33,454 bases of DNA, taken from NCBI GenBank assembly GCA_025964175.1, contig JAOPZL010000004.1, positions 1 through 33,454 of the forward strand, written 5' to 3'. This stretch comes from Solirubrobacterales bacterium (GTDB lineage: Bacteria > Actinomycetota > Thermoleophilia > Solirubrobacterales > Solirubrobacteraceae). This document shows positions 6,933 to 27,386 of the stretch, in pieces. Both the position numbers and the translations under genes were made by a program. The notes beneath the pieces are model-generated. The model was not told where the DNA came from. It saw nothing but the letters and a program-made list of their open reading frames with translations, and made no database searches. How positions within the stretch are numbered: position 1 is the stretch's first letter; every line of letters starts with the position of its first letter.

Positions 6933-7026
6933 ATCGGCGCCCGGCGATAAAGAAACCGGCACCCCCTCCCGTCAGAGGGACATGCAGGACAACAGCAGAT
7001 CGAGCCGCGCGACGGAGGCGACGACC

Positions 7027-7677
7027 ATGGAGAAGGGCGCGGACCGCGCCGCGACGCTCATGGACGGCTTCCGCTCGGCCATGTCGCAGCTGGCCGCCGG
7101 GGTGGTGATGGTCACCTGCCACCTCGACGCAAAGGCGTGGGGGCTGACGGTGAGCGCCTGTTGCTCGGTCTCGATGGAGCCGCCGATGCTGCTCGTCTCG
7201 CTGGGCACGCCGACCGCGAGCGCCCGGGCGATCACCGAGAGCGGCCGCTTCGGGGTCAGCGTCCTCGGCGAGTCGCTCACCGAGGTCGCGCGCTTCGGCT
7301 CGTCCCGCGGCCAGCCCAAGTTCGTCGAGCACTTCTGCCCCGGCGACGGGGTCAGCGAGTCACCGGCGGTCGGCGGCGCGCTCGCCCACGTCGACTGCGT
7401 CGTGGAGCAGGCCATCACCGCGGGTGATCACACCCTCTTCATCGGCCGCGTTCGCGACGTGATCCTCAACGACGGGGACCGTCCGCTCGTCTACTTCGCG
7501 CAGACCTATCACCGCCTTGCCGAGTCCAACGACCTGCACGTCGGCCCGGTGGCCGGCGAGACGGTCGACTCGCTCCTCCACGACTACCCGATACCCCGCG
7601 AGTTCGCGCCCGTCCACTCGCTCGGCGTTCCGCCGTCCCGCGATCTCACCGCAGCCTCCACCGTCCATCACACGTAG
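7027..7677 (+). CDS. Flavin reductase, HpaC/RutF-like split-barrel family
   Basis: 216 residues from ATG 7027, chosen because GGAGG lies eight bases upstream; ATG 6982 is an alternative that adds 15 residues. The fold is recognised from SAMSQLAAGVVMVTCHLDAKAWGLTVSACCSVSMEPPMLLVSL and the later FCPGDGVSESPAVGGALAHVDC and GDHTLFIGRVRDV segments, the usual pattern of NAD(P)H:FMN/FAD reductases of two-component monooxygenases. A tail of about 50 residues after the barrel has no recognisable domain. It sits 13 bases before the HpaB-type hydroxylase, so the two most likely form one two-component monooxygenase. It could also feed the luciferase-like monooxygenase at 3881. Confidence 0.88.
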   Translation: MEKGADRAATLMDGFRSAMSQLAAGVVMVTCHLDAKAWGLTVSACCSVSMEPPMLLVSLGTPTASARAITESGRFGVSVLGESLTEVARFGSSRGQPKFVEHFCPGDGVSESPAVGGALAHVDCVVEQAITAGDHTLFIGRVRDVILNDGDRPLVYFAQTYHRLAESNDLHVGPVAGETVDSLLHDYPIPREFAPVHSLGVPPSRDLTAASTVHHT

Positions 7678-7690
7678 CCAGGGAGGATCC

Positions 7691-9280
7691 ATGGCCACCG
7701 TCGAGCAACCCGTCACCACCCCAGAGAGCACGAAGCACCTGAAGAACGCCGAGCAGTACGTCGACTCGCTGCGAGACGACCGCCAGGTCGTCTACAAGGG
7801 CGAGCTGATCAAGGACGTCACGACCCACGTCGCGACGGCCGGCGGCATCAGGAACATCGCCGCGATCTACGACCAGCAGTTCGATCCCGAGGTGCAGAAC
7901 CTGCTGACCTACGTGCGGGAGGACGGCGAGCGGGTCACCGCCTCGTATCTGATCCCTCGCACCAAGGCCGATCTCGCGTTCCGCCGCGAGGGCATCAAGC
8001 ACGTCGCCCGCCAGACCTTCGGCACCCACGGCCGCGGCATCGACATGATCTCGACGTTGCCGCTGGGGATGCTCGCGGAGCTTCCCTCCTTCCGGCGCGA
8101 GTGCCCCGACTACGCGGACAACATCGCCCGCTACATCACCTACGCGGAGGAGAACAACCTCCACCTCGGCGAGACGATCGTCGACCCGCAGGGCTTCCGC
8201 TCCCGCGCCTCGGGAACCGATCCCGAGGCGCTGCCGCCCGAGCGGGCGACCGCCCGCATCGTCAAGGAGGACGCGACCGGCATCTGGATCAGCGGGGTCA
8301 AGGGCGTCGGCACGGCCGTGCCGCAGTCCAACGAGATGATCATCGGCAGCTTCCATCCGCCGCTGGACGAGGAGAGCTTCTGGGTCATGGTGCCGATCGG
8401 CTCGCCCGGCCTGAAGATGTTCTGCCGCGAGATCGTCCACCGGCCGGAGGCCACCGCCTACGACCATCCCCTGACCTCGCGGGGCGAGGAGGTCGAGTCG
8501 ATCGTGGCGTTCGACAACCTGTTCGTCCCCAACGAGCGCGTCATCGCCAAGTCGAAGCGATCGCTGCACGGCGTGAACTTCTACAACGTCTGGGCGCGCC
8601 TGGAGCACTGGTACACGTTCGTGCGCATCACCGCCAAGGCGGAGATGTACGCGGGCCTGGCGCAGCTGATCGTCGACACGCTCGAGCTCGACGGGGTTCC
8701 GGTCGTCCGCCAGCGCGTGGCGGACGTGATCGAGTACTGCAACATCCTGCAGGGGATGTGCCTGGCCGCCGAGGACCTGGCGCAGCTCTCCGAGGGCGGC
8801 GTGATGGTCCCCGAGGTCAACATCATCACCGCCGGGCGCTCCTACGCGCTGGACAACCTGCCCCGGATCCTGCACATCCTCCAGGACCTCTGCGGCCAGG
8901 GCATGATCCTGCGCTGGACCGAGGACGACCTGAAGGTCCCGGCGGCGTTCGGCAAGGACCTGGCCTGGTTCCTGGACACGCGCAGCATGAGCGCGCGCGA
9001 CAAGAACCTGGTCATGAACCTGGTCTGGGACGTCGCCTCCAGCGAGCACGCGACCCGCTCGAAGATCTTCGAGGAGTCCAACGCGCTCAACGTCCCGTTC
9101 CTCAAGGAGCGGCTCTACGGCGAATACGACCGTTCGCGCTTCCTGCAGGAGTGCCGCCACTTCATCGGCCTCGGGCCCGCGCCCAACCGCGAGCACGAGG
9201 CGCACATCCAGGCGCCGTCGCTGTCGACCGTGGGTCACAGCACGGGTGACGACTCGTTCCGGGCGGCGGAGAAGGCGTGA
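7691..9280 (+). CDS. HpaB/PvcC-family flavin-dependent hydroxylase
   Basis: 529 residues from ATG 7691 with GGGAGG just upstream; the longer track ORF runs back into the reductase gene. It belongs to the 4-hydroxyphenylacetate 3-hydroxylase family, which has an acyl-CoA-dehydrogenase-like fold and uses reduced flavin and oxygen to hydroxylate phenol-like rings ortho to an OH. Recognisable parts are the N-terminal YVDSLRDDRQVVYKGE, the middle WISGVKGVGTAVPQSNEMIIGSF, FDNLFVPNERV before the flavin-binding region, and the C-terminal helical bundle with YCNILQGMCLAAEDLAQ. Between the reductase and nicF/nicX genes, its likely role is hydroxylation of a hydroxypyridine-type intermediate towards 2,5-dihydroxypyridine, in place of NicC. 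That substrate is inferred. Confidence 0.87.
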   Translation: MATVEQPVTTPESTKHLKNAEQYVDSLRDDRQVVYKGELIKDVTTHVATAGGIRNIAAIYDQQFDPEVQNLLTYVREDGERVTASYLIPRTKADLAFRREGIKHVARQTFGTHGRGIDMISTLPLGMLAELPSFRRECPDYADNIARYITYAEENNLHLGETIVDPQGFRSRASGTDPEALPPERATARIVKEDATGIWISGVKGVGTAVPQSNEMIIGSFHPPLDEESFWVMVPIGSPGLKMFCREIVHRPEATAYDHPLTSRGEEVESIVAFDNLFVPNERVIAKSKRSLHGVNFYNVWARLEHWYTFVRITAKAEMYAGLAQLIVDTLELDGVPVVRQRVADVIEYCNILQGMCLAAEDLAQLSEGGVMVPEVNIITAGRSYALDNLPRILHILQDLCGQGMILRWTEDDLKVPAAFGKDLAWFLDTRSMSARDKNLVMNLVWDVASSEHATRSKIFEESNALNVPFLKERLYGEYDRSRFLQECRHFIGLGPAPNREHEAHIQAPSLSTVGHSTGDDSFRAAEKA

Positions 9281-9314: not shown

Positions 9315-9968
9315 ATGAGCGATGCCGACGCGCGGCGCGTCTACGACGCGGCGCGCCTGGGGCAGAGCCTGGTCTGGGGCTCCCGCCCGGCGGTCCTCGT
9401 CGTCGACTTCACCTGCGGCTTCACCGACCCCGCGTACGGCGCGGGGTCGGAGCTGACCGCCGAGGTCGAGGCGACGCGCCGGCTGCTCGACGTCGCTCGC
9501 GACGCCGCGACCCCGATCGTCTTCACGGCGATCGGGTTCGAGGCGAGCGGCATCGATGCGGGGATCTGGCTGCAGAAGTTCCCGGCTCTGACGGAGCTGA
9601 GGCTGGGCCAGCGGGCCGTGGAGATCGATCCGCGGCTCGGGCGGCGTGAAGGCGAGGTGATCGTGCACAAGAAGGGCGCGTCCGCGTTCTTCGGCACGAA
9701 CCTCTCCGCGATCCTCGTCGCCCAGGGCGTCGACACCGTCGTGCTCTGCGGGGCGACGACGAGCGGCTGCATCCGTGCCACCGCCGTCGACCTGCTGCAG
9801 CACGGCTTCCCGGCGCTCGTCCCGCGCGAATGCGTCGGTGACCGGGCGCGGTCACCGCACGACAGCAACCTCTTCGACATCCAGGCCAAGTACGCAGACG
9901 TGGTGACGCTCGACGCGGCGCTGGAGTACGTCGAGCGCAGCGGTACACGCGCCGGGGTCGTCGCATGA
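9315..9968 (+). CDS. nicF: Maleamate amidohydrolase, isochorismatase family (NicF-like)
   Basis: 217 residues from ATG 9315, preceded by GGGAGG. It is a cysteine hydrolase of the isochorismatase fold. The Asp-Lys-Cys triad can be placed at Asp31 (VLVVDFTCGF), Lys119 (HKKGASAFFGT) and Cys152 (TTSGCIRATAVD). NicF hydrolyses maleamate to maleate and ammonia; the related N-carbamoylsarcosine amidases have the same signature. I choose NicF because NicX is the next gene and NicD and NicE, the enzymes before and after it in the pathway, are in the same island. On its own the sequence would justify only 'isochorismatase-family amidase'. Confidence 0.8.
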   Translation: MSDADARRVYDAARLGQSLVWGSRPAVLVVDFTCGFTDPAYGAGSELTAEVEATRRLLDVARDAATPIVFTAIGFEASGIDAGIWLQKFPALTELRLGQRAVEIDPRLGRREGEVIVHKKGASAFFGTNLSAILVAQGVDTVVLCGATTSGCIRATAVDLLQHGFPALVPRECVGDRARSPHDSNLFDIQAKYADVVTLDAALEYVERSGTRAGVVA

Positions 9969-10002: not shown

Positions 10003-11079
10003 ATGATCACCTCGACCACGTTCGTCGACCTGTGCGTCAAGGAGCTCGAGCTCTGCAAGGTGCGGGAGGGCGAGACGGTCGCCGTCCTGTCGCAGATGGA
10101 CGAGCGGCTCGACTACGCCGACGCCTTCCTGGCCGCCGCGCACAAGCTCGGCGCCACGCCGTTCCACGTGCGGCTGCCGGAGGCCTCCACCTCGCTGACC
10201 GGCGACGCGGGAGCGTGGACGGTCGGCAACACGCCGTTGGCCAGCAATCCCGCCGCGCTGGACGCGCTGAAGTCCGCCGACCTCGTCATCGACCTGATGT
10301 TCCTGCTCTTCTCCCGGGAGCAGCTGGCGATCCAGGCGGCAGGCGCGCGGATGCTCCTGTGCGTCGAGCCGGTCGACAACCTGTCGCGGCTCTTCCCGAC
10401 CGCCGATCAGCGCCGCCGGGTCGAGGTCAGCGAGGAGCTGCTGGGCAGGGCCAGGAGCCTGCGCATCACCAACACGGCGGGAACCGACGTCGTCTACCAG
10501 CTCGGAACGCTGCCGGTGATGACCGAGTACGGCTACACCGACCAGCCCGGCCGCTGGGATCACTGGCCGGCCGGCTTCCTGTTCACGGGGGCACCGGACG
10601 ACGGCGTCGACGGCACCGTCGTCGTCGACCGCGGCGACATCATCATCACGCCGTTCAAGAAGTTCGTCGAGGACCCGGTCGAGATCACGATCGAGGCGGG
10701 CCTGATCCAGGACATTCGCGGCGGCTTCGACGCGGAGCTGCTGCGCGACTACATCGCCGGCTTCGAGGACGAGAAGGCGTACGGCATCTCCCACATCGGC
10801 TGGGGCTGCAACGAGAAGGCACGCTGGTCGGGCCTGGCCAACGACCGCCGCAGCATCGGCATGGAGAGCCGCTGCTTCTACGGCAACACGCTCTTCTCGA
10901 CCGGGCCGAACGTCGAGCTCGGGGGCACCAACGACACCGAGTGCCACATCGACATCCCGATGCGCAACTGCAGCATGTTCCTCGACGACGAGCCGGTCCT
11001 CATCGACGGCGAGTTCGTCATCGAGGACCTCCGGGCGTCGCGTGCGCCGTTCGCGCCGCCTTCCGTCGCGCGCGCCTAG
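10003..11079 (+). CDS. nicX: 2,5-dihydroxypyridine 5,6-dioxygenase (NicX)
   Basis: 358 residues, the usual NicX length. This is an iron(II) ring-cleaving dioxygenase on an M29-aminopeptidase-like fold that converts 2,5-dihydroxypyridine to N-formylmaleamate. From memory, long stretches agree with the Pseudomonas putida enzyme: TEYGYTDQPGRWDHWPAGFLF, YGISHIGWG, FYGNTLFSTGPN and CHIDIPMRNC. The metal ligands expected for the family are present at His264, His315 and Asp317. Automatic annotation might label it a leucyl aminopeptidase. It starts 34 bases after nicF with an AAGGA-type ribosome site and is followed by the molybdenum hydroxylase genes. It is the strongest single clue to the island's function. 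Confidence 0.92.
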   Translation: MITSTTFVDLCVKELELCKVREGETVAVLSQMDERLDYADAFLAAAHKLGATPFHVRLPEASTSLTGDAGAWTVGNTPLASNPAALDALKSADLVIDLMFLLFSREQLAIQAAGARMLLCVEPVDNLSRLFPTADQRRRVEVSEELLGRARSLRITNTAGTDVVYQLGTLPVMTEYGYTDQPGRWDHWPAGFLFTGAPDDGVDGTVVVDRGDIIITPFKKFVEDPVEITIEAGLIQDIRGGFDAELLRDYIAGFEDEKAYGISHIGWGCNEKARWSGLANDRRSIGMESRCFYGNTLFSTGPNVELGGTNDTECHIDIPMRNCSMFLDDEPVLIDGEFVIEDLRASRAPFAPPSVARA

Positions 11080-15052: not shown

Positions 15053-15173
15053 CGTTGCCGCGTAGGTGAGGGCGGTCTTGCCCGAGACCGGCAGGAGGAG
15101 GCCCGTTCCCCGCGACACGCGCGTGGACGGAGACGAAGCCAACCATCGCCATGCGAGAGGAGTGCTGTTTCAG

Positions 15174-16592
15174 ATGTCCTTCTTCAAAGAGCAAGTCAGC
15201 GCGAGCTACTACACCCTCGACGTCTTCTATCTGTTGGCGTCCGTATGTCTACTGCTCGTCGTCACCGCAATCGGCCTGATCGACGCAGGCCTCGTTCGTC
15301 GGCGCAACATCCTGGAGACCTGGCTGGTGAAGCTGGCCTCCGCGATCCTCGCCGGAGGCGCGTTCCTGGTCGTCGGCTACGGCATCTGGAACTGGCAGTA
15401 CTTCCAGGCGCTGGGGATCCCCAATCCACTCGGGGAGGCGATCAAGGGGTGGTGGATCGGTGGTTCGAACATGACCACGTTCTCCCACAACCTCGATCCC
15501 GCGATCACACCTGAAGCCGATGTGTTCCAGATCTTCGCGGTGTTCTTCTTCGCGTACGCGGCCGTGATCGGCGCGCTTCTGCACTCGGCCGGGCTCGAGC
15601 GCATCAGGGCGGCGCCGATGTTGATCATCGCCGTCATCGCCGGCGGCATCGTGATGCCGTTCGAGGCGTACCTGACCTGGGGCTCGGCGAGCTTCCTGAC
15701 CAACAACGGCGCGCACGACTACCTGGGCCTGTTCTCCTGCTACGTCCTCGTGGGCGTGTGGGGCCTGATCATCGCCTGGAGGGTCGGGCCTCGGCTCGGC
15801 GCGTTCCGCCCGCATCCGCAGGCGGCCGGCGTCTTCCCGGGCAACCTCGGACTCACGGGGATCGGCATCGGCCTGCTGCTGTTCGCGGTGCCGTTCCTGG
15901 CCCTCGGCTGCGGCTTCATCGTCCCGGACGCCGGCTACTTCGGCATCTCGATGGCGACGAGCGGGTTCGGCCTGGTCGCGCTCAACGTCGTCGCCTCCTA
16001 CACCGGCGGCCTCCTGGGCGGCATGGCCATCTCCTACCGGACGCGCAACCCGCTGTTCGCGATGATCGGCCCGGTCGCCGGCTACCTGGGCTGCGCGGCG
16101 TGCCTGGACATCGTGGACCCGTGGGTCTGCTTCCTCGTGGCGCTCTTCTCGCCGTTCGCGTTCTGGCTCGTCTACACGATCCTCTACCGCCTGAAGATCG
16201 ACGAGAAGAAGGTCGTGCCGCTCGGTCTGGGCTGCGGCACGTACGGCGCCATCGTCGCCGGGTTCGTCGGATGGCACACGCCCACCGGCGGCTACTTCGG
16301 GCTCGAGGGCGCCTATGGCTTCCAGCACGCACAGGTGACGCCGTGGATGCAGCTCGCGGCGCTGGGCGTGACGGTCGCGGTCGCCGCGGTCTCGGGGCTG
16401 ATCGTCATCGTCGGACTCGAGAAGACCATCGGCCTGCGCGTCAAGCGGGAGGATGAGCTGCAGGGTCTGGACGACGCTCTGTGGGCCACGCCGCCCGAGC
16501 CGGTCGAGCAGGTCCTCGCCGACTACGGCAACGGGGCCGTGCCGGACCAGGAGCCGGCCCCCGTAGGGGTGCCGGTGTCGCCGGGCCTCTAG
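15174..16592 (+). CDS. Divergent Amt/Rh-family membrane transporter lacking the twin-histidine pair
   Basis: 472 residues from ATG 15174 (MSFFKEQVSASYYTLDVFYLLAS) with GAGAGGAG upstream; the track start at 15066 abuts the hairpin and is unlikely. There are about eleven hydrophobic segments. Amt-like stretches are IGLIDAGLVRRRNILETW, FQIFAVFFFAYAAVIGALLHSAGLERIRAAPMLI, and KIDEKKVVPLGLGCGTYGAIVAGF. Aligning these by eye with E. coli AmtB, Asp160 is kept (Asp182), but pore histidines His168 and His318 fall on Tyr190 and Gly351. The gene lies alone between two hairpins. The pathway releases ammonia at NicF, so ammonium or amine transport is plausible, but the missing histidines leave substrate and mechanism open. 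Confidence 0.7.
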   Translation: MSFFKEQVSASYYTLDVFYLLASVCLLLVVTAIGLIDAGLVRRRNILETWLVKLASAILAGGAFLVVGYGIWNWQYFQALGIPNPLGEAIKGWWIGGSNMTTFSHNLDPAITPEADVFQIFAVFFFAYAAVIGALLHSAGLERIRAAPMLIIAVIAGGIVMPFEAYLTWGSASFLTNNGAHDYLGLFSCYVLVGVWGLIIAWRVGPRLGAFRPHPQAAGVFPGNLGLTGIGIGLLLFAVPFLALGCGFIVPDAGYFGISMATSGFGLVALNVVASYTGGLLGGMAISYRTRNPLFAMIGPVAGYLGCAACLDIVDPWVCFLVALFSPFAFWLVYTILYRLKIDEKKVVPLGLGCGTYGAIVAGFVGWHTPTGGYFGLEGAYGFQHAQVTPWMQLAALGVTVAVAAVSGLIVIVGLEKTIGLRVKREDELQGLDDALWATPPEPVEQVLADYGNGAVPDQEPAPVGVPVSPGL

Positions 16593-18646: not shown

Positions 18647-19462
18647 ATGGCCCTTGCACCCTCGGGCGCGAGCGGCTTCGTGCAGGCCAACGGCCTGCGG
18701 CTGCACTACCTGTCCTACGGCGCAGACGATCCCGATCGGCCCGCCATCCTCATCCTCCCCGGGATCACGAGCCCGGCGGTGACGTGGGACTTCGTGGCCC
18801 GCGAGCTGGCGGACCGGACACGGGTCATCGCGCTGGACATGCGGGGCCGCGGTGCGTCGGATCGGCCGCCCACCGGATACGCCCTGTCGGACTACGCCGC
18901 CGACGTTGTGGGGACGATCGCCGGACTGCGCCTGCGCCGGCCGCTGCTGCTGGGGCACTCGATGGGCGCCCGGGTGGCCGCCGCGGTCGGCGCCCTGCAC
19001 CCCGGTGTCGCCGGCCCGATGATCATCGCCGACCCGCCGCTGACCGGCCCGGGCCGCGCGCCGTACAACATCTCGGTGGAGGACTTCCGCCGGCAGCTGC
19101 ACGAGGCCTACGCGGGCACGACGGCCGACGCTGTGCGGCGTGACTACCCGCGGTGGAGCGACCGCGAGCTCGCGCTGCGCGCGGAGGTGCTGCCCACCTG
19201 CGCCGAGCACGCCGTGGTCCAGACGCACGAGCACTTCGACGTCGAGGACTTCTTCGCCCTGTGGCGCCTGCTCCCGCCGCCGCTGCTGTTCGTCTACGGC
19301 ATGGAGAGCCCGGTGATCGACGCGGCCGGGCTCGCCGAGGTGCGGGCGGCCAACCCGGCGGCGGAGGTCGCGGGGATCGCGGACGCCGGTCACATGATCC
19401 CGTGGGAGAACCTGCAGGACTTCGTCGCCGTCGTGCGCGACTTCGCCGCCGCTACGCGGTGA
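18647..19462 (+). CDS. nicD: N-formylmaleamate deformylase, alpha/beta hydrolase (NicD)
   Basis: 271 residues. The alpha/beta-hydrolase triad is visible as Ser105 in GHSMGAR, Asp129 in IADPPLTGPGR and His249 in DAGHMIPW. The oxyanion-side motif LPGITSPAVTWDFVA, the RGRGASD segment and DPPLTGPGR agree closely with my recollection of P. putida NicD, so this is more specific than a generic hydrolase call. NicD releases formate from N-formylmaleamate to give maleamate. It ends the CoxD-CoxE operon and converges on nicE, the two genes overlapping by 11 bases at their 3' ends. No formate dehydrogenase is in the window. Confidence 0.88.
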   Translation: MALAPSGASGFVQANGLRLHYLSYGADDPDRPAILILPGITSPAVTWDFVARELADRTRVIALDMRGRGASDRPPTGYALSDYAADVVGTIAGLRLRRPLLLGHSMGARVAAAVGALHPGVAGPMIIADPPLTGPGRAPYNISVEDFRRQLHEAYAGTTADAVRRDYPRWSDRELALRAEVLPTCAEHAVVQTHEHFDVEDFFALWRLLPPPLLFVYGMESPVIDAAGLAEVRAANPAAEVAGIADAGHMIPWENLQDFVAVVRDFAAATR

Positions 19463-20216
19463 GGGCCAGGCGGCCGTCCAGCAGCGAGCCGGCGCCCGGC
19501 GCGACCGGCGTGAGGCCGAGGCGGTTCAGGATCTCGAACGTCGTGGCCACCGAGGCCGACAGCACCGGCAGCCCGAGCTCCTGCTCGGCGATCTCGATCG
19601 CGGGCAGGCAGGGCATCTGCACGCAGGCCGACAGGACGACGGCCTGCGCGGAGCCGAGCCGCAGCCGGCCGGCGATGGCCGGCAGACGCAGGGGATCGTG
19701 GCGACCCACGTCCAGGTTGCGCGGGATCTCCAGGCTGATGGCGTCGGTGACCTCGATGCCGGCGTCCTCGAGGTAGTCGACCACGCGGGCGGTCAGCGGC
19801 TTCATGTACGGCGTGACGATCGCGACGCTGGTGAGCTGCAGGGCGGTGATCGCCCGCACCAGCGCACCGGCGCTGGAGACGATCGGGGCGGCGGAGCCCT
19901 GTTCGGCGGCGACGGCCGCCAGCCGCCGCTCGGAGGTCCGGTGGTAGCCGGGGCCCTGGGCCATGATCGCGACCAGGCACGCATAGGCGATGACGTCGAC
20001 CTCGGCGTCGGTCAGCTCGACGGCGCAGCGATCGCTGTCGCTGACCATCTGCGCCAGCTCTCGCTCCGTCACCTGGTTCATGCGCACGCGGCTGGAGTGG
20101 ATCGAGAAGCTCTCCGCCGCGAGCTCGCGCCGGCGGCGCAGGATCTCCCCGACCTCGATCTCCATGGTCGTGTTCGAGCTGGGGACGATCAGCCCGACCC
20201 GGTGGTGGGAGCCCAC
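19452..20216 (-). CDS. nicE: Maleate cis-trans isomerase, Asp/Glu racemase family (NicE)
   Basis: 254 residues, the usual length of maleate isomerase. The start MGSHHRVGLIVPSSNTTMEIEV and the segments HSSRVRMNQVT, SDRCAVELTDAEVDVIAYACLVAIMA and YMKPLT match my recollection of NicE closely. The two catalytic cysteines of the family are present at Cys80 (YACLVAIMA) and Cys198 (LSACVQMPCLPA). It isomerises maleate to fumarate, delivering the carbon to the TCA cycle. It is on the opposite strand to nicX/nicF/nicD, in an operon behind the DUF3891 and NTF2-like genes, so its expression may be set separately. Confidence 0.93.
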   Translation of the reverse strand: MGSHHRVGLIVPSSNTTMEIEVGEILRRRRELAAESFSIHSSRVRMNQVTERELAQMVSDSDRCAVELTDAEVDVIAYACLVAIMAQGPGYHRTSERRLAAVAAEQGSAAPIVSSAGALVRAITALQLTSVAIVTPYMKPLTARVVDYLEDAGIEVTDAISLEIPRNLDVGRHDPLRLPAIAGRLRLGSAQAVVLSACVQMPCLPAIEIAEQELGLPVLSASVATTFEILNRLGLTPVAPGAGSLLDGRLALTA

Positions 20217-20592: not shown

Positions 20593-21399
20593 TCACGCCC
20601 GCGCCGGGCGGATGCGGATCGTCGTCGGGGTCGGTGTCGCCGCGAAGAAGTCGGCCCGGAACGCGTCGGTGTCCGGCCAGTCGCGCTTGGGCACCTCGCG
20701 CCGCAAGACGCTGAACTCCGTCGCGCCGTCGGCGAACGGGAACGGATCGAGCCGGACGGCCCACGGACCGTCCGGCTCGATGGTGATCGCCGTCGTGCCG
20801 CCGGCGTAGTCGACCGGCACGGGGTCGATCGCCGCGTCCTCACCCCCAGTGAGGTCACGCATGCAGAAGTGGAGCGAGAGGCGGTCGAACACCTGCAGCA
20901 GGCGGTAGTTGGTCCAGCGCTCCTGCTCCTCGATGCCGAGCTCGTCGATCAGCTGGGACTGGCGCTCGAGCTCCTCGTCGGCGAAGGCTGCGACGGCGCG
21001 GCGCTCCGCTTCGGCGAAGGACAGCACCAGCGCCGGGTCCGTGCCGTAGCGGCCGTTGTAGATCCCGCACCCGTGCATCGAGACGAGCAGGCCGGCGTAC
21101 GCGTCGTCCAGCAGCACTCCGGTGATCTGCGCGCGGTAGAAGGCGAGATGGGGGAGGACCTCGATGTCGAGGAAGTTGCGCGGCTGCGGTGGAGCGCCAT
21201 TGGCGGCCAGCAGCGAGGGAGCGCGCTCCCAGATCGCCCAGCCGTCGTCGTGGCGCGCCGTCGCGGTGAGCATGCTGCGGCGCGGGTGCAGTGGCTCGAA
21301 GCGGTCCCCGCCCCACGCGGCGGCGAACTGGCCGGCGAGATCGGCGTGGTCGGTCTGGAGCACGATCTGCCAGGCATGGCCGAGGTCGCGGACGATCAT
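20593..21399 (-). CDS. DUF3891 family protein, function unknown
   Basis: 268 residues from ATG 21399 (MIVRDLGHAWQIVLQTDHADLAGQF), the usual position of the family N-terminus; an in-frame ATG at 21435 would add 12 residues and has slightly better ribosome-site context. The His/Asp-rich motifs TDHADLAGQFA, ARHDDGWAIWE and LVSMHGCGIYNGRYG look like a metal-binding, HD-like helical core, but no activity is established to my knowledge. It heads the minus-strand operon DUF3891-NTF2-nicE and is divergent from the creatininase-like gene. A role in handling a pathway intermediate is possible but not shown. Confidence 0.72.
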   Translation of the reverse strand: MIVRDLGHAWQIVLQTDHADLAGQFAAAWGGDRFEPLHPRRSMLTATARHDDGWAIWERAPSLLAANGAPPQPRNFLDIEVLPHLAFYRAQITGVLLDDAYAGLLVSMHGCGIYNGRYGTDPALVLSFAEAERRAVAAFADEELERQSQLIDELGIEEQERWTNYRLLQVFDRLSLHFCMRDLTGGEDAAIDPVPVDYAGGTTAITIEPDGPWAVRLDPFPFADGATEFSVLRREVPKRDWPDTDAFRADFFAATPTPTTIRIRPARA

Positions 21400-21537: not shown

Positions 21538-22347
21538 ATGACCGACGCTCTGCAGCTCGAACGCATGACGTGGACCGAGGTGGATCGGGCCCTGGCCGAC
21601 GGCGTCGATGCGGTGTTGGTGCCGTTCGGCTCCGTCGAGCAGCATGGGCCGCACATGCCGCTGGACACCGACTCGCTGATCGCACGGGAGCTCGCGCTGC
21701 GGGTCGCCGCCCGCGGCGCCCAGGAGGGGGTCCGGATGCTCGTCGCGCCGACGATCGGCGTGACCGTCTCCTGGTACCACATGCAGTACGCGGGCAGCAT
21801 GCGGTTGACGACCGACACGTTCCTGCGCGTGGTGCGCGACGTTCTCGACTCGCTCGTCACGCACGGGCTGGAGACGATCGTGATCGTCAACGGCCACGGG
21901 GGCAACGTCCCGGCGCTGACCGTGGCCATCAACCACTATCTGGAGACGACGGGCCGCCGGATCGTGGTGGCCAACTGGCTCGACCTGGCCAGCGACGTCG
22001 TCGGCGAGATCGACACGCCGGGGCTCCACGCGGAGGAGGCCGAGACCTCCCTGGCCTTGGCCCTGGGCCAGCGCGTGGATCTCGAGGCGGCGACCCGCGA
22101 CGCCTTCGACCGCGGTGCCGCCGTGCGCGCGGCCGGACTTCCATGGACCTCGTTCGGGCGCTACGACGCGTCCCACCGCGGCCCGTCGGTCACCGTGCCG
22201 ATGGACATGCTGCGGGACATCGCGCCGTCGGGGGTGGTCGGCGACGCGACGCGCGCGGCCCGGGCCACGGGCGAACGCATCGTGGAGGCCTTCGTCCCGC
22301 GGCTGGTCCAGGTCGTGCGCGAGCTCACCGGCGGGGCTGCCGCATGA
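21538..22347 (+). CDS. Creatininase-family amidohydrolase
   Basis: 269 residues. Metal-binding residues of the creatininase fold are recognisable: Glu34, His36 and Asp45 in VEQHGPHMPLDTDS, His120 in NGHGGN, and the later HAEEAETS segment. The family includes creatinine amidohydrolase and the archaeal deformylase ArfB, so cyclic or formyl amides are typical substrates. In this island it could hydrolyse a lactam or N-formyl intermediate as a bypass or partner of NicD/NicF; this is inference. The stop overlaps the RidA-like gene by ATGA. No creatine-pathway genes are nearby. Confidence 0.85.
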   Translation: MTDALQLERMTWTEVDRALADGVDAVLVPFGSVEQHGPHMPLDTDSLIARELALRVAARGAQEGVRMLVAPTIGVTVSWYHMQYAGSMRLTTDTFLRVVRDVLDSLVTHGLETIVIVNGHGGNVPALTVAINHYLETTGRRIVVANWLDLASDVVGEIDTPGLHAEEAETSLALALGQRVDLEAATRDAFDRGAAVRAAGLPWTSFGRYDASHRGPSVTVPMDMLRDIAPSGVVGDATRAARATGERIVEAFVPRLVQVVRELTGGAAA

Positions 22348-22760
22348 GGGTGCAGCGGCCGGGCACCCCGGGCGTGGCGACGCCCCAGGAGCCCTATGCG
22401 CAGGCGGTCCGGGCCGGAGACACGCTGTACCTGGCCGGCCAGGTCGCCTTCGACGAGGACAACGACGTCGTCGGCGTGGGCGATCCGCGCGCGCAGATCG
22501 AGCAGTGCTGGCACAACGTCCAGCGCATCCTCCAGGCCCAGGGCGCGAGCCTGCACGACGTCGTGAAGGTCGTCTGCTACTTCACCGACATCCGCCACTT
22601 CCCGCTGGAGCTGGAGATCCGCCGCCGGCTCTTGGGCACCGGGCCCTACCCCGTGGCCACGGTGATGCAGGTCGCCAACCTCGGGCTGGACTCGCTGCTC
22701 GTGGAGATCGATGCGACCGCCGTCCTCAGCCCGCCGTCCCCAACCCACCAGGAGTCATGA
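22344..22760 (+). CDS. RidA/YjgF-family protein lacking the usual catalytic arginine
   Basis: 138 residues from ATG 22344. The family pattern is clear: GDTLYLAGQVAFDEDNDVVG, QCWHNVQRILQAQGASLHDVVKVVCYFTD and GLDSLLVEIDATAV. RidA hydrolyses reactive enamines and imines, using an arginine in a PAR[ST] motif. Here that segment reads YPVATVMQV, with Ala105 at the arginine position, which places it among the Rid subgroups not expected to have classical imine deaminase activity. It is coupled by 4-base overlaps to the creatininase-like gene before it and the small gene after it, so the three are probably one functional unit. Confidence 0.85.
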   Translation: MRVQRPGTPGVATPQEPYAQAVRAGDTLYLAGQVAFDEDNDVVGVGDPRAQIEQCWHNVQRILQAQGASLHDVVKVVCYFTDIRHFPLELEIRRRLLGTGPYPVATVMQVANLGLDSLLVEIDATAVLSPPSPTHQES

Positions 22761-23005
22761 TGCAGGTCAACGTCCAGCTCAAGGTCGCCACCGGGACGGT
22801 GGCGGCGAGCCTCGGGTACGAGAGCGCGGTCGAGTCGACGCTCAAGCACGCCGGGTTGAAGATGTACCCCAAGAACCCGGGCACGCAGGACTCGATGGAG
22901 GCCTGCCTGTTCCGCGTGCCGGTCAAGGACCAGGACGAGGCCGATCGCGCCCTCGCGCTGCTGCGCGATCACGAGGGGGTCGAGCGCGTGGGCGTCGCCG
23001 CCTAG
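22757..23005 (+). CDS. Small protein of unknown function in the creatininase-RidA operon
   Basis: 82 residues from ATG 22757, with AGGAG four bases upstream and an ATGA overlap with the RidA-like gene. I do not recognise the family. The N-terminal half (MQVNVQLKVATGTVAASLGYESAVESTLKH) looks like a strand followed by a helix; the C-terminal half (EACLFRVPVKDQDEADRALALLRDHEGVERVGVA) has the strand-helix-strand rhythm of a ferredoxin-like fold. It is soluble, with one cysteine and no signal peptide. The coupling, ribosome site and fold-like pattern argue that it is real. Its stop codon shares the four bases CTAG with that of the convergent MFS gene. Confidence 0.7.
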   Translation: MMQVNVQLKVATGTVAASLGYESAVESTLKHAGLKMYPKNPGTQDSMEACLFRVPVKDQDEADRALALLRDHEGVERVGVAA

Positions 23006-24577: not shown

Positions 24578-24587
24578 TTGCATACCG
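24578..24587 (+). repeat. Direct repeat TTGCATACCG, copy 2
   Basis: Second copy; its last base is the first base of the GTG proposed as start of the GntR gene. A protein bound here would directly hinder transcription or translation of that gene. Confidence 0.45.
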
Positions 24588-25267
24588 TGAAACCACAGCT
24601 CGCGACGCCGGCGGCAGCCGCCGGCAGGAACGCGGCGCAGAGTGCGACCGCCTCGATCCGCGCCGCCATCCTCGAAGGGCAGTTCGTCCCCGGCCAGCGT
24701 CTCACCGAGGGCTCGCTGGCCCGCGAGCTGCGCACGAGCCGGACGCCGGTGCGCGAGGCGCTCGGCCGGTTGACGACCGAAGGGCTGGTCGTCGCGGCGC
24801 CCCATCGTGGCGTGACCGTCTGCTCCTACGGCGTCGAGGACCTGCGGGAGATCTCCAGCCTGCGCTCGCTGCTGGAGGGGCGGGCCGCCCGGCTCGCTGC
24901 CCGAGCGGCGAGCGCCCAGCAGCTGCGGCGGCTGGGCGCGAGCTGCGACCGCTTCTCGTGTCTGCTCGCCGAGGAGGCGCCGATGACGGAGCTCGTCAAG
25001 GAGAACCTGACCTTCCACGAAGCGATCCTCGCGGCGGCGGGGAGCCCGCGGCTGGCCGAGATGGCTCGAAGGGTGCGCGACCTGCCGTTGGTGTACCAGA
25101 CCTACTCGTGGTCGTCGCCGGACCGCTGCCGCGTGGCGATGTCGGAGCACCGGCGCCTGCTCGGCGCACTGGAAGGGCACGACGACGAGCGCGCCGAGCT
25201 GATCATGCGCCAGCACATCCTGGACGGCTCCGACCTGCTGCTCGCGCACTTCGGGACGGCCGCATGA
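24587..25267 (+). CDS. GntR-family transcriptional regulator (FadR/FCD subgroup)
   Basis: 226 residues from GTG 24587, chosen because it leaves about 20 residues before the winged helix, as is usual; GTG 24479 would add 36 residues and place the operator-like site inside the gene. No Shine-Dalgarno is visible, so start and leader are uncertain. The winged helix is IRAAILEGQFVPGQRLTEGSLARELRTSRTPVREALGRLTTEGLVV, typical GntR. The C-terminal helical FCD-like domain carries histidines expected for metal/ligand binding (FHEAIL, SEHRRLLGAL, QHILDGSDLL). It most likely represses the catabolic genes until a pathway compound binds. Confidence 0.9.
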   Translation: MKPQLATPAAAAGRNAAQSATASIRAAILEGQFVPGQRLTEGSLARELRTSRTPVREALGRLTTEGLVVAAPHRGVTVCSYGVEDLREISSLRSLLEGRAARLAARAASAQQLRRLGASCDRFSCLLAEEAPMTELVKENLTFHEAILAAAGSPRLAEMARRVRDLPLVYQTYSWSSPDRCRVAMSEHRRLLGALEGHDDERAELIMRQHILDGSDLLLAHFGTAA

Positions 25268-26475
25268 AGGCCGTCGACGGCCCCCTCGACGGCCTGCGGG
25301 TGATCGAGCTCGGCACGCTGCTGGCCGGTCCGTTCGCGGGCCGGCTGCTGGCCGACATGGGCGCCGAGGTCATCAAGGTGGAGGCGCCCGATCGTCCCGA
25401 TCCCATGCGCGGCTGGGGGCAGACGTCGTACCGCGGACGGTCGCTGTGGTGGCCGGTGCTCGCCCGCAACAAGAAGTGCGTCACGCTCGACCTGCGCAGC
25501 CCGGCCGGCCAGACGCTCCTGCTGGAGCTGGTGGCCAAGAGCGACGTCGTCATCGAGAACTTCCGCCCCGGCACCCTCGAGCGCTGGAACCTCGGCTACG
25601 AGCAGCTCGCGGCCGTCAACCCCGGCATCGTGCTCGCACGCGTCTCGGGCTACGGGCAGACCGGCCCCTACGCCGCGCGGGCGGGATACGCGGCGGCGGC
25701 CGAGGCGATGGGCGGCCTGCGCTTCATCAACGGCTATCCCGACGAGCCGCCACCGCGGGCGGGCATCTCGCTCGGCGACTCGCTCGCCGGCATGTTCGCC
25801 GCGCAGGGCGTGCTCGCGGCGCTCTACCGGCGCGACCACTCGCCGGACGGGCGGGGGCAGGTCGTCGACGTCTCGATCCTGGAAGCCTGCTTCGCCCTGT
25901 TGGAGGGCGCCGTGCCCGAGTACGACCTGCTCGGTCACATCCGGCGTCCGAGCGGCTCGCGCATGCCGGGCGTAGCACCGTCCAACGTCTTTGCGACCGC
26001 GGACGGCCGGAGCATCGTCATCGCGGCCAACCAGGACACGCTGTTCCGCCGCCTGTGCGGCGTCATGGACCGGCCCGAGCTCGCCGACGACCCGCGCTTC
26101 GCCGCCCACGCGGCGCGCTTCGAGAACCAGGACGAGCTCGAGGCGCACATCGCCGCCTGGGCCGTGGAGCGCACCGCCGAGCAGGTCGACGGGGTCCTCA
26201 ATGCCGCCGGCGTCGTCTGCGCCCCGATCATGAGCATCGCCGACATCTTCGCCGACGAGCACGTGCGCGCCCGCGAGATGCTGGTCGAGCACGTCGACCC
26301 GGAGCTCGGCTCGTTCACCGGGCCCGGGGTCGTGCCGAAGTTCTCCCGCACGCCCGGCGGGGTGCGCTGGACCGGCCCGTGGACGTCGGGCCAGGACAAC
26401 GCCGAGGTGCTGGGCCAGCTGGCCGACCTCGGCGACGAGGACCTCGCCGCGCTGGCCCGGGAGGGGACGATATGA
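25264..26475 (+). CDS. Class III CoA-transferase (CaiB/BaiF family)
   Basis: 403 residues from ATG 25264, overlapping the GntR stop by ATGA; the 505-aa track ORF extends upstream in error. Family features are LDGLRVIELGTLLAGPFAGRLLADMGAEVIKVE at the N-terminus, KKCVTLDLRSPAG, and Asp172 in SLGDSLAGMFAAQGVL at the position of the catalytic aspartate that forms the acyl anhydride. It moves CoA between carboxylic acids, typically dicarboxylates or aromatic acids. The HMG-CoA-lyase-like enzyme follows with an ATGA overlap, so the pair probably activates and then cleaves a hydroxy-dicarboxylic acid. The acid is not identifiable from sequence. Confidence 0.92.
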   Translation: MKAVDGPLDGLRVIELGTLLAGPFAGRLLADMGAEVIKVEAPDRPDPMRGWGQTSYRGRSLWWPVLARNKKCVTLDLRSPAGQTLLLELVAKSDVVIENFRPGTLERWNLGYEQLAAVNPGIVLARVSGYGQTGPYAARAGYAAAAEAMGGLRFINGYPDEPPPRAGISLGDSLAGMFAAQGVLAALYRRDHSPDGRGQVVDVSILEACFALLEGAVPEYDLLGHIRRPSGSRMPGVAPSNVFATADGRSIVIAANQDTLFRRLCGVMDRPELADDPRFAAHAARFENQDELEAHIAAWAVERTAEQVDGVLNAAGVVCAPIMSIADIFADEHVRAREMLVEHVDPELGSFTGPGVVPKFSRTPGGVRWTGPWTSGQDNAEVLGQLADLGDEDLAALAREGTI

Positions 26476-27386
26476 GCGTCACGATCTGCGAGGTCGGGCC
26501 GCGCGATGGCCTGCAGAACCATCCGCTGGTCGTGGCGGTGGCCGACCGCATCGAGCTCATCGAGCAGCTCTCGGCCAGCGGCCTGCCGTGCATCGAGGCG
26601 GTCAGCTTCGTCCATCCGGCGCGCGTCCCCGCCATGTCCGGCGCGGAGGCGGTGCTCGCGGGCGCCCGCCCGCACCCGCTCACCCGGCTGACCGGCCTGG
26701 TGCTCAACGCGCACGGTCTCACGCGCGCGTTCGCGGCCGGGCTGGCCGAGCTGCGCTACGCCTTCGCCGTCTCGGACGCGTTCAACCGGCGAAACGCGAA
26801 CAGGTCGGCGGCCGAGGGACGCGCCGGTGCCGTGGCGGCGGTGCGCATGGCCCAGGCACGCGGTGTCCGCATCGGCGTCGTCCTGGCGACGGCGTTCGGC
26901 TGCCCGTTCGAGGGCGAGGTCGACCCGGGCGCCGTCATCGACGCTGCGGCCGAGCTGGCCGCGGCAGGCGCCGACGAGCTCATCCTCGCGGACACGATCG
27001 GTGTCGCCGTCCCGCGCGACGTGCGCCGGCTCGTGCCCCGCGCGCTCCCGCTGGGGCCGACGATCGGCGTGCACATGCACAACACCCGCAACACCGGCTA
27101 CCTCACCACGTTCGCGGCCATCGAGGCGGGAGCCACGATCGTGGATGCGGCGGTGGGCGGTCTCGGCGGCTGTCCCTTCGCGCCCGGCGCGACCGGCAAC
27201 ATCGCCACGGAGGATCTCGTCTATGCGCTCGAGCGCGAGGGGATCACCACGGGCGTCGACCTCGACCGGCTGCTGAAGACCGCCGCCTGGCTGGAACGGC
27301 GGCTGGCGGTGCCGTTGTCCGGGCAGCTGCTGCGCGCCGGCCGCTTCCCGGCCGCGAGCGCCGGCCGACGGAGCGCGAAGCCATGA
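26472..27386 (+). CDS. HMG-CoA-lyase-like enzyme (HMGL/DRE-TIM family)
   Basis: 304 residues from ATG 26472. The DRE-TIM barrel signature starts at once with VTICEVGPRDGLQN, in which Arg and Asp are catalytic/metal residues. The metal-binding HMHNTRN and the family signature GLGGCPFAPGATGN with its conserved cysteine are both present, as is LADTIGVAVP. It should split a 3-hydroxy-3-methylacyl-CoA or related ester to acetyl-CoA and a keto acid. Coupling to the CoA-transferase suggests the substrate is made by that enzyme. True HMG-CoA lyase for leucine breakdown is possible, but no leucine-pathway gene is near. Confidence 0.88.
   Translation: MSVTICEVGPRDGLQNHPLVVAVADRIELIEQLSASGLPCIEAVSFVHPARVPAMSGAEAVLAGARPHPLTRLTGLVLNAHGLTRAFAAGLAELRYAFAVSDAFNRRNANRSAAEGRAGAVAAVRMAQARGVRIGVVLATAFGCPFEGEVDPGAVIDAAAELAAAGADELILADTIGVAVPRDVRRLVPRALPLGPTIGVHMHNTRNTGYLTTFAAIEAGATIVDAAVGGLGGCPFAPGATGNIATEDLVYALEREGITTGVDLDRLLKTAAWLERRLAVPLSGQLLRAGRFPAASAGRRSAKP

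Follow-up and report, generated by a model that had tools for sequence, protein, structure and literature searches.

The locus considered here raises the question of whether three genes that are tightly packed in one bacterial genome also share one function. The window, by which we mean the whole stretch of 33,454 nucleotides analysed from a Solirubrobacterales bacterium, encodes in direct succession and on the + strand a creatininase-fold metal-dependent amidohydrolase of 269 aa (21538..22347; PF02633, E=3.5e-57), a Rid-family (YjgF/UK114) protein of 138 aa (22344..22760; PF01042, Ribonuc_L-PSP, E=2.2e-26) and a ferredoxin-like protein of 82 aa with GYE and PGTQD motifs (22757..23005; assigned by alignment, AlphaFold2 model and dN/dS), for which an alternative ATG at 22760 would give 81 aa. 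The original prediction had placed ATGA overlaps at both the hydrolase/Rid and the Rid/small ORF junctions, and both overlaps and their coordinates are correct. In a related genome (G357), GTGA is common to the hydrolase and Rid genes and ATGA to the Rid and small genes, while in another (G002) the GTGA overlap is followed by a 31-base gap before the small gene. A search around the trio revealed neither a sigma-70-like promoter nor a terminator, a result that is uninformative for a GC-rich host. The reading that we prefer, at a probability of about 0.5, is that the three proteins are separate accessory helpers of 2,5-dihydroxypyridine (2,5-DHP) catabolism, each with its own proposed role and not parts of a single complex, whose genes would have been packed together for joint transcription in a single family of the host class. 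A joint enzyme formed by the three is unlikely.

Judged by its encoded enzymes, the window is a 2,5-DHP catabolic island. Three enzymes that together define a nic-type 2,5-DHP pathway are encoded on the + strand and recognized by PDB matches, namely 2,5-dihydroxypyridine 5,6-dioxygenase (NicX, 10003..11079; 7cn3, E=7.6e-96), N-formylmaleamate deformylase (a NicD-like alpha/beta hydrolase, 18647..19462; best match 4l0c, 'Deformylase', E=3.2e-45) and maleamate amidohydrolase (NicF-like, isochorismatase fold, PF00857, 9315..9968; best match 4l07, E=5.2e-55). A maleate-isomerase-like protein of the Asp/Glu racemase/arylmalonate decarboxylase fold (19452..20216, - strand; PF17645, E=5.9e-16) is also encoded, its specific activity being suggested by gene position. 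Upstream on the + strand lie a flavin reductase (6982..7677; PF01613, E=6e-37) and an HpaB-type flavin-dependent monooxygenase (7691..9280; PF11794/PF03241), presumed partners whose genes adjoin each other in all six islands. An ammonium-transporter-family gene (15162-16592, +; PF00909) lies inside the island and is kept in G002 and G007, and the window further holds a cytosine-permease-like transporter and a three-subunit Mo-hydroxylase-like set, labels that are our reading of the sequences. Because the whole island represents the 2,5-DHP pathway, the link of the trio to pyridine-ring opening that had been proposed is supported.

Comparison with known clusters sets the trio apart from the core of this pathway. 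The dioxygenase, deformylase, amidohydrolase and maleate-isomerase-like genes of the nic (Pseudomonas putida) and ndp (Sphingobium) clusters are all present in the window, where the hydrolase, Rid and 82-aa genes are extra; in Sphingobium, the gene adjoining NicX is annotated as maleamate amidohydrolase (ndpG). The clusters of Sphingobium and Mesorhizobium carry annotations for other monooxygenases, whereas hydroxylation in the window would depend on the HpaB-type two-component monooxygenase. Since the four-step core is found on plasmids of Sphingobium (ndp) and Mesorhizobium that carry no such trio, the trio is accessory; neither a homologue of the small protein nor a close relative of the hydrolase was found in plasmid records. 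These three genes form a conserved accessory set for a pathway of a known kind, and one of them represents an undescribed small protein family.

For the hydrolase, the roles of N-formylmaleamate deformylase and of maleamate amidase were considered, and neither is needed, as close homologues of solved enzymes for both steps stand at 18647-19462 and 9315-9968; with the deformylase slot already filled, nothing requires the hydrolase to be the enzyme for N-formylmaleamate. It shares the PF02633 profile with the creatininase family (creatininase, MftE, IolN, ArfB), along with E34, H36, D45 and H120, which do not vary across ten aligned sequences and which, from published creatininase structures, we take to be metal ligands; E167/E169, conserved across relatives, are further acidic ligand candidates. 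It differs from these enzymes in its equivalog scores, in a Gly at the position of creatininase Glu122 and in the HyuAB and cyclase neighbours of its close relatives. Creatinine amidohydrolase proper was rejected (97.3 bits against a cut-off of 235, with Gly at position 122), as were the mycofactocin peptidase MftE (114.6 against 172) and the ArfB deformylase (41.1 against 180); the IolN score is also under its cut-off, and no NCBIfam equivalog scores above cut-off for the hydrolase, the Rid protein or the small ORF.

The hydrolase's nearest relatives outside the trio (59-67% identity) have no Rid or small gene nearby, and at loci with covered flanks they adjoin PF04199 cyclase, HyuAB and isochorismatase genes; those at 65-67% identity (loci L005 and L006) are accompanied by HyuAB, cyclase, DUF3891 and a NicF-like amidase. 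Since these relatives keep such company, a cyclic-amide role is supported, and we propose that the protein is a binuclear-metal cyclic-amide/imide hydrolase, which would most likely return a cyclised side product to the open-chain amide for the NicF-like amidase; maleimide, a candidate by chemical analogy, may be such a substrate. These data link a creatininase clade to cyclic-amide gene neighbourhoods and to DUF3891. The DUF3891 gene of the window (20593..21399, -; PF13030, E=3.1e-55) is divergent from the hydrolase gene, as it is in all four 2,5-DHP islands with the hydrolase, and it lies one to two genes from the hydrolase relative in the hydantoinase clusters L005 and L006, the L005 copy being PF13030. 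The pairing of DUF3891 with this creatininase clade was seen in the window, L005, L006, L085, L086 and L091, and no mention of DUF3891 was found in the literature searched.

These neighbourhoods also bear on the alternative that the trio serves a different, peripheral substrate (hydantoin-, creatinine- or cyclic-imide-like) and merely shares the island and the GntR, CaiB-like and HMG-CoA-lyase-like genes downstream (24587-27386, +). It would account for the HyuAB, cyclase, DUF3891 and amidase genes beside the 65-67% relatives, and for the recurrence of GntR-CaiB in L005 and of the lyase-like gene in L006. However, HyuAB and the cyclase are absent from the window and from the orthologous islands, and the small gene tracks HpaB (see below), which makes a peripheral substrate for the whole trio unlikely. 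The company that GntR-CaiB or the lyase-like gene keeps with hydrolase relatives hints, as a separate observation, at a shared downstream route.

Alignments to solved Rid structures agree with the claim that the Rid protein carries Ala105 where RidA has arginine; the Ala is also found in the G357 and G002 orthologues, and the position is Cys in G007 and Asp or Ser in other near relatives, while Tyr18 and Glu121 are kept. The role of this arginine in Rid proteins has been described, and the Arg-less Rid4-Rid7 proteins form an established set whose function is described as unknown and of which Rid4 and Rid7 carry Trp at the arginine position (PMC4433059). With Ala105, the window protein lacks the Arg105-equivalent that marks the RidA/Rid1-Rid3 imine deaminases; it resembles Rid4-Rid7 in family, in the kept Tyr and Glu and in the missing arginine, and since the residue is Ala and not the Trp of Rid4/Rid7, the Arg-variable Rid5/Rid6 groups are the only candidates. 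The nearest published precedent that we found is the Rid6 gene of the Agrobacterium S33 nicotine cluster, which is likewise located in a pyridine-degradation pathway, is nicotine-induced and is predicted by its authors to clear enamines or imines (PMC7688666). The window Rid protein may act on a by-product without the carboxylate that Arg105 ordinarily binds, a candidate being a hydroxypyridine or a ring-opened amide in its imine or enamine tautomeric form. Family chemistry and gene neighbourhoods together suggest that the Rid protein and the hydrolase probably both clear side products. The window adds a genomic case for Arg-less Rid proteins.

Whether the three proteins belong to one unit can be judged from how they are distributed. 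The small gene was located by protein search in the family and the class, and the trio does occur together elsewhere, with the full hydrolase-Rid-small row in two of the three other islands of the trio lineage (G357 and G002). In the third, G007, the hydrolase and small genes are 12 bases apart and the Rid gene (53% identity, Cys105) lies at the opposite end of that island. In two genomes of a different family (G337 and G364), the order is SDR, small gene, mini-protein, flavin reductase, HpaB and amidase, which puts the small gene two genes upstream of the flavin reductase, followed by HpaB; NicX, the deformylase and the isomerase follow in G364, and the contig of G337 stops within the amidase gene. 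Neither of these two genomes has a close hydrolase, and their nearest Rid proteins (about 40%) are encoded elsewhere. As the hydrolase, Rid and small genes are each separable in relatives, the set is modular. In G007, two tandem 120-aa cupin-like ORFs, recognized by eye, follow the relocated Rid gene (L158:16454-17658, +); the one that was tested has no Pfam match.

The original prediction had reasoned that tight coupling suggests one function, and this step is not supported, with the small gene lacking both partners in G337 and G364, the hydrolase lacking both in hydantoinase clusters and the Rid gene moved in G007. That the three proteins form one functional unit hydrolysing or detoxifying a single reactive ring-opening intermediate is favoured by the double ATGA coupling in the window, by both overlaps in G357 and by the retention of the trio in G357 and G002, but each gene is found without one or both partners in related clusters and the island already has genes for the core hydrolytic steps, so that we regard a single unit as quite improbable. 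A tempting inference from operon to function is in this way corrected, and separate roles that can be tested are offered instead.

Among 399 genomes of the class, an HpaB orthologue with at least 73% identity occurs in G000, G002, G007, G357, G337 and G364, and clear matches to the small protein occur in exactly those genomes (6/6). The chance of two sets of six coinciding comes to 2e-13 for genomes and 9e-8 for genera, phylogeny being ignored in both figures; given that most genomes are drafts and that the islands come from no more than six genomes in two families, one or two ancestral events could account for the co-occurrence. Genome G297 combines NicX at 78% identity with an HpaB of only 60% and lacks the small gene, which indicates that the small gene follows the monooxygenase clade and not NicX, although this absence is weaker evidence because the genome is only 81% complete. 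Because of the exact co-occurrence and the near-adjacency in G337 and G364, we infer a role at the HpaB step, where the 82-aa protein probably assists the monooxygenase as a non-enzymatic accessory protein of the hydroxylation by HpaB and flavin reductase. Two further matches to the small protein, in G004 (46% over 41 residues, in an unrelated frame) and in G623 (38 profile positions, E=0.006, in an unrelated protein), were taken as chance.

The small ORF is conserved at the codon level, with dN/dS of 0.14-0.34 in the trio lineage (0.16 for window-G357, 0.34 for window-G002 and 0.14 for window-G007) and 0.20 for G337-G364; pairs at the greatest distance are saturated and give no information. 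Since the trio also recurs in G357 and G002, neither of the two refuting conditions set out with the original prediction, a trio confined to the window or a small ORF free of codon-level constraint, overturns it. Its six aligned sequences have GYE, GL, PGTQD, V.D and a late Gly in common. An AlphaFold2 model (mean pLDDT 88.8) with a beta-alpha-beta-alpha-beta arrangement and a short extra strand supports the predicted ferredoxin-like pattern, and a fold search returned only generic ferredoxin-like folds (S6, ACT, YciI/TftG-like), which do not discriminate. TftG is a YciI-fold enzyme that works after an HpaB-type monooxygenase; it was considered as an analogue, and no conserved His was found in the small protein. 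No Pfam or NCBIfam family covers the 82-aa protein, DUF2007 being rejected at 13.7 bits against a gathering threshold of 25.7 in one of six members, and SPOR and DUF1654 as weak matches that are inconsistent across members; a profile search of PDB sequences with the family gave nothing significant. The description of the protein as having no recognisable family thus stands for curated libraries and fails in profile comparison, which links it to stand-alone prodomain-like proteins beside S8 peptidases. The family is undescribed and missing from the curated libraries, and it marks one clade of putative pyridine-ring monooxygenases.

The S8 connection comes from two genomes. Profile searches found a 78-aa homologue in G008 (E=2.2e-9, reciprocal, with PGTQD shared) and a weaker one in G446 (E=2.5e-6; the value of 5.5e-28 in a later search was obtained with that sequence itself included in the profile). 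Both are encoded directly upstream of S8-like protease genes, of which the G008 protease is PF00082 and the G446 protease matches annotated S8 peptidases by tblastn, and both proteases start with an N-terminal domain of their own that is related to the stand-alone proteins. These gene pairs lie at L173:7341-9540 (-) and L179:4919-7958 (+). With hhalign, the island family matches the stand-alone S8-linked proteins (2 sequences) at a probability of 97.7%, and these match S8 prodomains (4 sequences) at 97.1% over 101 columns, whereas the direct comparison of the island family with S8 prodomains gives 1.5% and is not significant; the G008 stand-alone protein resembles the fervidolysin prodomain at E=0.0057, below cut-off. 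As the link is transitive and the direct comparison not significant, kinship is likely and not proven: by sequence, the 82-aa protein is likely a distant relative of S8 prodomain-like proteins. It has the ferredoxin-like fold in common with subtilase prodomains, inhibitor I9 and the fervidolysin prodomain. From the S8-linked stand-alone proteins it differs in that the window island has no S8 gene, that the G008 relative has no GYE motif and that the AYVxPP-like C-terminal tail is lost in island copies.

We therefore weighed whether the 82-aa protein is still an inhibitor or chaperone of an S8 peptidase encoded elsewhere, with no role in pyridine metabolism, which would fit the G008 and G446 homologues directly upstream of S8 genes and resembling their prodomains but is highly improbable, since none of the six genomes with the island small gene has the G008-type S8 peptidase, the tail is missing from the island copies and the linkage of the 82-aa gene to the island is kept across two families. 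The helper role at the HpaB step that we prefer would then have arisen in a protein derived from S8 prodomain-like proteins, its protease partner having been lost. In its fullest form, the recruitment of a stand-alone subtilase-prodomain-like protein to an HpaB-type two-component hydroxypyridine monooxygenase, which it would serve as a dedicated subunit with an accessory or regulatory function, is put forward tentatively, as a possibility with the odds against it; if true, both the protein family and this use of the fold in aromatic-ring catabolism would be new.

Other small genes occur near the 82-aa gene in related islands. A SnoaL-like ORF, recognized by eye and absent in the window, lies directly 3' of it in G357 (L091:5703-6113, +) and G002 (L085:10371-10775, +), overlapping it by ATGA in G002. 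A second short conserved protein with a W.DVLRR...GWGTRP motif, which was not found in the window, is encoded immediately 5' of the flavin reductase gene in G002, G357, G337 and G364 (L162:11350-11538, +; L163 upstream of 5504, -; L092:8500-8778, +; L093:1552-1827, +), and in two of these proteins the tail motif is repeated.
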